Positions 712 through 60,093 of a stretch of DNA of 64,000 bases are shown in pieces. This DNA comes from Mesostigma viride. Lineage: Eukaryota; Streptophyta; Mesostigmatophyceae; Mesostigmatales; Mesostigmataceae. The DNA lies in assembly GCA_009746045.1 (NCBI GenBank), contig RPFO01000891.1, positions 1,014,404 to 1,078,403 of the forward strand, written 5' to 3'. The translations under genes and the position numbers were made by a program. Position 1 is the first letter of the stretch. Every line of letters starts with the position of its first letter. Under the pieces are notes generated by a model. That model worked only from the letters and a program-made list of their open reading frames with translations. It ran no database searches and was not told the origin of the DNA.

Positions 712-3700
712 ATGTCTGTCGATGCCATTGTTGGCGTTAACGTGCACTTTTACCGGCTTCGGAACGTTGATTTGCTGCAGCAAGGGTAAGTTTGCATTGT
801 GGGGACAATGGCGCCGCTAGCTTTTCTAATTGCTGGCCAGTTTTTATTTGAAAAAGTTGCTTGCGTCAGCATGCTGCGGCGTCCGGACTTCTTAGCGGCC
901 CCCGCTTTGGGACCCGGTTCGACGGTGACCTAGAATTGTAGCACGCAATGCCTCAGTTTTGCAGCTAGACATGACAGGTGGTGTCATATAGCGTAGCCCG
1001 CAATCGTGCTATCCATGCCGCCTCTCCATGTGGCCCCTGTCTTGGTATCGCGGCGCAGAGATGTATTTGAGCTCCTTGATGAAGCTATGATTACGTGTTA
1101 CACCGTGCCGCTTTCCCCCAGATGGTATGCCATCCAGCTGCGGGTTCACGAAGAGGGGGGCACGAAGCAGCCTGGCATGATCTGCCATGTCGTTCCCTAC
1201 TCGCGTAAGTTCCAAAGGGTAAAAACTCGCATTTCTTGATGGCGCCATCCCGCCAATGGCCCACACAGCTGCGCTCACTGCCGTGCATCCATCTGGATGG
1301 AGGATGGGGCCTCGTAGGTGGTAATGTGTTTCAAGTACTTCCTTTGTAAAGGTACTGCTTCTTCCCCATCCAACATTGCCTCAGGGATCCATATGGACAG
1401 GAATAAAGCTTCTATTTACCTTCTGAAATAGGCAACAATTATGTGCCTCGGATGATTTCCACTCTGTTTGACATGAGGGAGCTTTGGTGTCGTCTATGCT
1501 ACCTTGCAAGCCTATAGATCAGGAGCACTGGTGGGTAAACATTGTGCCCACTAGGTTGGCTTCGTGTACGGAGGCTTTGGGTATTCAAAGGGACCCTGGC
1601 GTTGTAGCCCCTCCCTTACGGCGCGGCCATACGCCTAATCACCACTTTGTATGCAGCATCCAGTCATGCTTTGCGTGGGCCTAGGATTTGCGAGGGCCAC
1701 CCCTCGTCTCATGGTGACCAATACATTGACCATTACAGTGACCATGAACACCATACTAGGCTTTGTGAGGGCCACCCCTTCTTTAATGGGGCCGCTTGGG
1801 CCCGTTCTAGGCTTCAGTGGATATATGGCCCCTTGATTGTTTGCAATGCTATGCTGCCCCCTGCTGTGGGTTTGCTGTCAGGCAGCGCATAGAGATAGGG
1901 CTGGGCTGCCAACGATTCCATTGACATGGTCTGTGCTCCTGCTAGCTTGCCCGAGCTATATATATCATTGGCAAGCATATACGGCTATGTTATCTTTACA
2001 AAAAAATATGGGTACACTATCAAGACCAATAGTTCATTCACCTGTCAGTTCCTTGCATTGCCTCTGATACTTTCCTGGCACTTCCCAGGGGGGGGGGGGG
2101 GGGGGGGGCATGGCGGCTTTGGGCTGGCCTGATCTGCCCTGGCCTGAGCTTGAGCTCGATAACTGCAGCTGTCTGAGCTGCCATGAAAGAGAGATGGGCA
2201 TGTAGTGCATGCTGCCACACATGCTATGCTAGAACTGGGCGAAGTGACCACGTGTGAAACTGGTAGCCCTCGCTAAGCCTCGTACCGATAGCCACGTTGC
2301 GGTCATGTGCTGTGCCTGTAGTGGCGGCCACACCCTTTGCGAAACTGGTAGCCCTGGCGAAGGCCCGTGCTCACACCATTGCATGCCTACCGGGCTTGCC
2401 CTACCAAGCGATTGGGTGGGAGAATGCACGTATCATCCCAGACCCCAGAGATGCCATCTGGCACGTTCCCAGAGATGCTATGGGGCACGTTCTAACTGGT
2501 ACACAGCTGATGGCTTCTGCTGGTGTGGATTCGGGGGCGGGAGGCAGCCGTCTGGGAGTTAGCCCACGGCAGGAGGAAATTTCACAATTTTCATTTCAAA
2601 ATTGTGAAATTCTTCGTGTGTGCTGGCACCTGTGTCTGTGTCTGTGCGCACATGTGTGGGTCTTCCCATGCCTTTGTGTGTGCATGCTCAGGTGCGTGTT
2701 CTTACCTTTCTCTGCTTTATCTACCTGTGTGCTTTTTGCGTATGTATGTTTGTATGTCCGTATGCCTGTGTGTTTCTATATATCAATGCATACGCACGGG
2801 TGGCTGGGTCAATGGATGTGGGTTGGGGGGGTGGGGGGTGGGGGGTGGGGGGGGGGGGGGGGGGGGGGGGGGGGGCGGGGTATACGTGTGTGTGTGTGTG
2901 TGTGTGCATGTTCAAATTCTGGCAGATGGCGCGTTGCGCGGCGCGTCCTCTGCCACGTTCTGGCAGGTGGATGCAGAGCAGAATACCTTCCGTACGCAGC
3001 TCATGCGCATACGCTATGCGCAGGAGGAGGTGGACCTGGCCACCATGGTCGCGTTCCAGCTGACGTTTGACACCATGGAGGTGAGCATCCTACACTATAT
3101 GTATCGTGGAGGTGACGGTTTAGTTATAGTACTCTACAGGTGTCTTAGAGAGGGTTTAGTTACAGTACTCTACAGGTGTCTTAGAGATGTTTTAGTTATA
3201 GTATTCTGCAGGTGTCTTGGAGAGGGTTTAGTTATAGTATTCTATAGGTGTCTTAGAGAGGGTTTAATTATAGTATTCTACAGGTGTCTTAGAGAGGGTT
3301 TAGTTATAGTATTCTGCAGCTGTCTTAGAGAGGGTTTAGTTATAGTATTCTACAGGTGTCTTAGAGAGGGTTTAGTTATAGTATTCTGCAGGTGTCTTAG
3401 AGGCGGGGCGGTGGATCTGGCCACCATGTCCAGCTGACCTTCGACACCAATGGAGGTGAGGAAGATAACGGTCGGAAAGTGCAGCATGGAAATGAGGGAA
3501 TGTATAGAGAGCCGTGTGGCATGGCTAATTACCACCATTAGGTACCACCTCACCTTTGGCACGACGGTGATGTGGGATTTTCTGGATGAGTCCTTGTTCA
3601 GGGGCGATTAGGTACAGTAGCGGCACCTGTTTGTGGGCCCCTTTTAGTGCCAGCAAGGCATGCCGGCGTATGCAAATACGCCGCCTTCTCATAAATCTCA

Positions 3701-60093: not shown

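Follow-up and report, generated by a model that had tools for sequence, protein, structure and literature searches.

Introns that seem to grow partly by local duplication across their own start

The two genes of the window and their junction copies

The window analysed here is a 64 kb stretch, eukaryotic by its introns, taken from an assembly that comprises 440 Mb in 2243 contigs. Two genes in the window were modelled by eye from three-frame translations, with exon borders and exon numbers deduced from the sequence:

712, forward strand: ATG of the FAM135-like gene (sequence-read gene model)
60093, reverse strand: ATG of the PDIL5-4-like gene (sequence-read gene model)

Among six exons of the two genes submitted to Pfam, DUF676 was recognised in two FAM135-like exons (E 4.3e-15 and 1.9e-18) and COPIIcoated_ERV in one PDIL5-4-like exon (5.6e-6), a second PDIL5-4-like exon scored below the cut-off (0.01), and no family was returned for the remaining two, at 17887-18171 (+) and 59725-59811 (-). 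Matches in four of the six exons tried, one of them below the cut-off, support the predicted FAM135-like and PDIL5-4-like identities.

Other features of the window include an array of roughly 279 copies of a 20-bp unit (97% matches) at 47272-52819, within the PDIL5-4 gene between exons 7 and 9, and long tetranucleotide or similar simple arrays, with long ORFs of repeated peptides, at 7253-7733, 8931-9365, 39902-40216, 57247-57501 and 62796-63997. ORFs at 26100-27724 (-) look by eye like a LINE-type reverse transcriptase, and Pfam returned no family at E 0.1 for 26100-26759. The first 385 residues of a long ORF at 61103-62794 (+) weakly resemble xyloglucan fucosyltransferase (E 0.0032, below the cut-off), and 29000-35000 holds long GC-rich ORFs of coiled-coil appearance on both strands.

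A total of 34 exon-intron junctions, 18 exon ends and 16 exon starts, were placed and tested in the window, and a copy was scored at an ungapped identity of at least 16/20 within 600 bp. For PDIL5-4, exons 4 and 8 as well as the exon 6 end and the exon 12 and 14 starts lie outside this test, as do FAM135 exons 2-11 for the most part. Copies were found at nine of the 34 junctions, a rate that is no estimate of the genome rate because the window was picked for the pattern; these are six of the 18 exon ends (PDIL5-4 exons 3, 10, 11, 14 and 15 and FAM135 exon 13) and three of the 16 exon starts (PDIL5-4 exons 3 and 5 and FAM135 exon 14). The features concerned are as follows:

3020..3086, forward strand: end of FAM135-like exon 3 (final exonic base 3080), donor GTGAGC (gene model, junction test)
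3117..3402, forward strand: array of a 36-bp unit, 7.9 copies, between the FAM135 exon 3 junction and its distal copy (tandem-array listing)
3407..3460, forward strand: tail of FAM135 exon 3 with GTGAG, copied with gaps (score 76, shuffle maximum 40)
16466..16548, forward strand: array of a 19-bp unit, 4.4 copies, at the end of FAM135 exon 13 (final exonic base 16471), reading CCGCAG before the junction and GTAATCCTGGTCG after it (junction test)
17595..17622, forward strand: 17/20 match to the start of FAM135 exon 14, located 284 bp upstream of that start (17887; junction test)
58977..59324, reverse strand: array of a 44-bp unit, 7.9 copies, of the acceptor together with the start of PDIL5-4 exon 3 (exon from 59003; junction test)
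58708..58919, reverse strand: array of a 95-bp unit, 2.2 copies, at the PDIL5-4 exon 3 end (junction test)
55036..55066, reverse strand: copy of the PDIL5-4 exon 5 start (exon start 54982), 17/20 at -77 (junction test)
44944..45008, reverse strand: array of a 24-bp unit, 2.7 copies, at the end of PDIL5-4 exon 10 (final exonic base 45004), donors GTAGG, GCAGG and GAAGG
43875..44143, reverse strand: degenerate 22-bp copies at the end of PDIL5-4 exon 11 (final exonic base 44143; junction test)
40480..40940, reverse strand: copies of the end of PDIL5-4 exon 14 (final exonic base 40940), 17/20 at +129 (junction test)
39459..39606, reverse strand: copies of the end of PDIL5-4 exon 15 (final exonic base 39591), 18/20 at +105 (junction test)

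The last base of PDIL5-4 exon 3 is 58909 if GTACGT is the donor, and the next candidate, GTATGG, is also possible. Head-to-tail arrays of regular spacing stand at PDIL5-4 exons 3 (start and end), 10 and 11 and at FAM135 exon 13. The first-pass annotation had named nine junctions as copied in the adjoining intron, and all nine were recovered, eight by the strict ungapped test and one, the FAM135 exon 3 end, only with gaps (14/20 ungapped; the gapped copy has a local score of 76, whereas 100 shuffles gave at most 40). The start of PDIL5-4 exon 5 is an additional case. The decay described for the copies was likewise seen, both in the donors GTAGG, GCAGG and GAAGG after PDIL5-4 exon 10 and in the frame-breaking indels at FAM135 exon 3.

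Junction copies in an independent intron sample

Kinesin and chaperonin introns of the same genome, located outside the window, constituted an independent sample of 26 loci from two gene families. The kinesin introns were delimited with a splice-aware aligner and a kinesin profile built from the genome's own matches, in successive sets of 94 introns at 20 loci, 110 at 23 and 114 at 24, and the chaperonin genes added 10 introns; the first 94 kinesin introns comprise 90 GT-AG and 4 GC-AG introns, with a median length of 550 bp. Low-complexity windows were dropped from the 20-bp tests, as were introns near a locus end or outside the lower and upper length limits (the upper limit being 4 kb in most analyses and 8 kb in that of copy classes). 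Locus L064 was dropped from the locality comparisons onwards because of contig redundancy: in the overlapping contigs carrying L063 and L064, C622 repeats part of C2 over 3.7 kb with no mismatch and two 1-base gaps, and C622 is, on this alignment, a redundant contig of the assembly. Intron 2 of L051, paralogous to intron 2 of L048, was dropped from the control comparisons, and one chaperonin intron was not modelled.

In the 20-bp window at -5 relative to the donor, 26 of 119 introns (approximately 22%) were found to carry their own exon tail and 5' splice site copied downstream. About one intron in five in the genes sampled thus carries decaying copies of the preceding exon end and its splice signal, and the claim that junction copies occur in unrelated genes holds beyond the window; in the chaperonin genes, the second family, copies were present for 4/10 donors and 0/10 acceptors. 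At an identity of at least 16/20, copies on the exon-end side were found for 0/108 windows at -40, 20/108 at -10, 22/106 at -5 and 19/104 at the donor itself, compared with about 9-14% of intron-internal windows, and on the acceptor side for 6/108 at both -10 and -5 and 3/108 at the junction. At 19-20/20 identity the donor rate approximates the interior rate, so that the donor excess is clearest for older copies.

The chance level of such matches is low, since donor windows set against introns from other genes never reached 16/20 in 830 comparisons, and the assertion that the copies are not random intronic DNA is accordingly upheld. For window -10, a copy was present in the intron immediately downstream in 22/113 cases, in 0/488 comparisons with other introns of the same gene, in 0/89 upstream introns and in 0/113 reverse-complement searches; the corresponding values for window -5 are 24/111, 0/485, 0/88 and 1/111. 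In 25 kinesin introns, the distance between the donor and the best copy, within the intron, is 22-242 bp. Local, same-strand duplication of DNA across the junction is thereby demonstrated at the level of sequence. Median intron length was 655 bp with a copy (n=26) and 542 bp without (n=87), a nominal difference in favour of introns with a copy.

Donors compared with the intron interior

The first-pass annotation suggested that duplication falls preferentially across splice sites and proposed as its refutation that junction segments should hit their own introns no more often than interior segments do. When 80-bp segments were aligned in this way, hits were obtained for 22/116 donors, 10/116 acceptors and 60/348 interior segments, with no donor excess, and by this self-alignment the claim of junction preference fails. 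With 20-bp windows, the 26/119 donors exceed the plain interior expectation of 11.7 by 2.2-fold, an excess that disappears when the expectation is doubled to allow for a conserved source (23.4, p=0.24). These two results are as expected if duplications arise evenly and donor copies only seem frequent, a conserved exon keeping the match recognisable for longer, and that reading also accommodates the equal rates of the tandem class at donors and in the interior and the similar rates at 19-20/20 identity.

A donor is always the 5'-most member of its repeat, whereas an interior window may be any member, and a control in which interior repeats are counted once per family, by the 5'-most member only, was therefore taken as the fairer one. 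By this control, at 16/20, copies were found for 24/121, 26/119 and 22/117 donors (windows -10, -5 and 0) against 3.4-3.5 expected, an enrichment of 6.9-, 7.7- and 6.5-fold with gene-bootstrap intervals that together span 4.3 to 11.4; at 18/20, the enrichment is 5.2-, 5.7- and 4.8-fold, and the donor p value is at most 3.2e-3 even against the doubled expectation. Acceptors, whose source is equally conserved, show no such excess in the same control (6/121, 6/121 and 3/121 against 3.6 expected, or 1.7-, 1.7- and 0.8-fold, at 16/20; 0.4-0.8-fold at 18/20). Preferential duplication is thus retained for the 5' splice site and not for 3' splice sites overall. In simulations of uniform neutral duplication with a conserved exon, moreover, donors fell below the interior in 12/12 settings, which were chosen rather than fitted, so that the observed 2-fold excess requires a donor hot spot or another cause. 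On this balance, an even distribution without junction preference is considered unlikely.

At window -5, isolated copies number 13/119 at donors against 0.9 expected, and tandem donor copies alone match the plain interior rate (11/119 against 10.4 expected). An earlier sorting by block length and spacing gave tandem copies at 9-11% of donors and 10-12% of interior windows, and isolated copies at 7-10% of donors near -10 to 0 compared with 0.4-0.7% of interior windows. At acceptors, isolated copies number 4, 5 and 2 per 121, more than the 0.9 that the plain interior rate predicts (for the 5/121 at window -5, p is 1.1e-3, or 0.024 against the doubled expectation), and they may thus be in slight excess there as well. 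Sites within introns that resemble donors carried isolated copies in 0/158, 3/152 and 3/149 cases, compared with 9/113, 11/111 and 7/109 for real donors, and this rarity leaves a hot spot produced by the sequence of any donor-like site unsupported for isolated copies. Tandem copies, found at 29/158, 25/152 and 31/149 of these cryptic sites, are not less frequent there than in the random interior (14% of 465).

Structure, fate and origin of the copies

Scored by class in 124 introns, the copies comprise 31 of donors and 7 of acceptors. Among the 31 donor copies, the repeat covers both sides of the junction in nine, three are intermediate, and 19 belong to class B, in which the intron side does not align without gaps beyond the splice-site core; when gaps are allowed, 14 of the 19 reach at most 11 bases into the intron and the other 5 reach 15-29 bases. 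The 7 acceptor copies fall into the same classes as 1, 3 and 3. A unit as long as the spacing and spanning the junction on either side, as in a tandem repeat, is present in 9/31 donor copies, and the lack of an intron-side match in class B is not what a simple long tandem duplication predicts. Old full-length tandem duplications that have since decayed are an unlikely source of most class B copies, whose intron side is near the random level without gaps, since a neutral divergence of approximately 13% per branch would leave that side about 77% alike. Right-side similarity is absent at p 0.05 in 9 of the 14 class B kinesin introns listed, and a decayed full-length duplication is possible for the other 5 (right-side p at most 0.05).

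In five arrays (L041 intron 6, L044 intron 5, intron 2 of L048 and L051, and L058 intron 5), the farthest copy departs from the repeat unit soon after the donor, which, as judged by eye, suggests that an isolated copy arose first and was converted into an array by unequal exchange. The paralogues L048 and L051 share the junction array of intron 2, the rest of which aligns poorly (one pair), and another intron of the kinesin paralogue pair has a copy in one paralogue only (one pair, anecdotal). Introns 2 and 3 of L048 and L051 align poorly apart from that shared array, which suggests fast intron turnover in this genome.

Several properties of the copies bear on whether selection maintains them as functional alternative exon ends or as micro-exons. 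Good donors are retained in some copies and an AG with pyrimidines precedes others, as would be expected of such elements, but 3' splice-site scores of at least 4 at the left edge, found in 3/13 isolated copies, are no commoner than in random intron sequence (18.6%), a result on which the micro-exon reading was rejected. The donor score is below zero in 4/13 isolated copies. Only 3 of the 20 listed distances are multiples of three. In the exonic part of class B, 33 of 92 differences over 585 bases are synonymous (36%), as are 22/59 (37%) in a first set of copies; random change would give 23%, from which a value of approximately 37% was calculated for a free copy beside a constrained exon. The synonymous share is therefore at its neutral value, without a sign of selection at the protein level, and judged by these substitutions the copies evolve as neutral DNA. 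A selected function is accordingly regarded as highly improbable.

A mobile origin was also considered, in which an introner-like element would insert at the 5' splice site and the duplicated target would span the junction. Isolated copies do end on both sides and come with a spacer of unrelated sequence. However, the 17 printed spacers have no common sequence by eye, and the FAM135 exon 3 region (3000-3500), the PDIL5-4 exon 3 region (58700-59400) and one kinesin spacer each gave a single match in the 440-Mb genome, in searches that skip simple repeats and very common words; many related genome copies, as introners would leave, were found for none of these three regions. A mobile element is thus an unlikely source in the regions searched, and insertion of this kind at the splice site is given very little credence.

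Another candidate is copying coupled to splicing. During transcription of an intron, the exon tail and the U1-bound 5' splice site would remain at the polymerase, and a break in the intron could be repaired there from these sequences with RNA or DNA as the template. Repair of breaks from an RNA template is reported for mammalian cells (PMC12065846, PMC5059474). Such copying would fit the 14/19 class B copies that consist, gaps allowed, of the exon tail plus at most 11 intronic bases, and the restriction of copies to the same strand of the same intron, solely downstream; the existence of acceptor-side copies speaks against it, and it is rated as very unlikely. The related proposal that splicing, by holding the 5' splice site, turns it into a duplication hot spot, and that introns lengthen by repeatedly re-copying their own junction, appears a little less probable still.

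The preferred reading, to which a probability of roughly 0.6 is assigned, is local duplication across the junction by break repair or slippage, tolerated because the upstream donor survives, in combination with an unexplained donor hot spot. A block of approximately 8-43 exonic bases with the 5' splice site is duplicated into the intron that follows, within its opening few hundred bases, probably through staggered-break repair or template slippage, as the analogy with Daphnia and the block structure suggest. The original upstream donor would stay in place and the copy would fall inside the intron, preserving the reading frame, and the copy, once made, is neutral and decays; some copies may seed minisatellite arrays. 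An acceptor copy would fall upstream of the real acceptor, could be used first and would presumably be kept less often. The position of donor copies behind and of acceptor copies in front of the original makes the asymmetry between 5' and 3' sites consistent with tolerance. Duplications in the intron interior are equally free, however, so that tolerance alone does not explain why donors exceed the interior, nor does it predict the isolated acceptor copies above the plain interior rate (5/121 against 0.9). Direct repeats within introns beyond chance, the expectation from staggered breaks, were observed (26/119 donors against 0/830 unrelated comparisons).

The lengthening of introns is usually ascribed to mobile elements and random insertion. 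Introns here seem to grow partly by local duplication across the intron start, and part of the intron sequence is descended from the end of the adjacent exon; the asymmetry between 5' and 3' sites is strong. If confirmed, the donor hot spot connects splicing or transcription with a mutational process, and junction copies become a neutral record of duplications beside a fixed source; a hot spot held by splicing, if true, would tie splicing to genome growth. Exon-like intron sequence with a good donor can also mislead gene prediction.

No description of donor-seeded repeats within introns was found in the literature searched, mostly without subscription papers; the nearest published work there deals with the gain of introns or with direct repeats at their two ends. 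The tandem duplication across an intron-exon boundary in the AGGT model and the potato RdRp case (PMC4974935) is similar, but there the duplication makes a new intron and in potato spans the 3' splice site, whereas here an existing intron absorbs the copy; the printed copies, by eye, lie inside a longer intron and provide none of its acceptor, whereas intron gain at AGGT would take GT and AG from one copy each. In the account of repeat expansion in Cryptococcus (PMC2395259), the intron content of a gene is likewise altered by repeat expansion, but introns within a repeat multiply, whereas here one junction is repeated inside its own intron. Direct repeats of 4-30 bp near splice sites at intron borders (PMC11782384) were compared between the 5' and 3' border, and the present copies are of one border in its own intron. 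Introners (PMC9860276) also add intron sequence in bulk, as dispersed element families, whereas the duplications here are local and single-copy where searched. The new introns of Daphnia (PMC4202315) offer a further parallel, because exon-terminal bases are repeated and direct repeats in introns exceed chance, which was read there as repeated staggered breaks that lengthen introns. In Daphnia, the exon-terminal repeats, 33 in number and 4-12 bp long, are situated at the other end of a new intron, whereas the blocks described here contain 8-43 exonic bases, lie near the donor and are centred on the 5' splice site, in introns that may be old or new.
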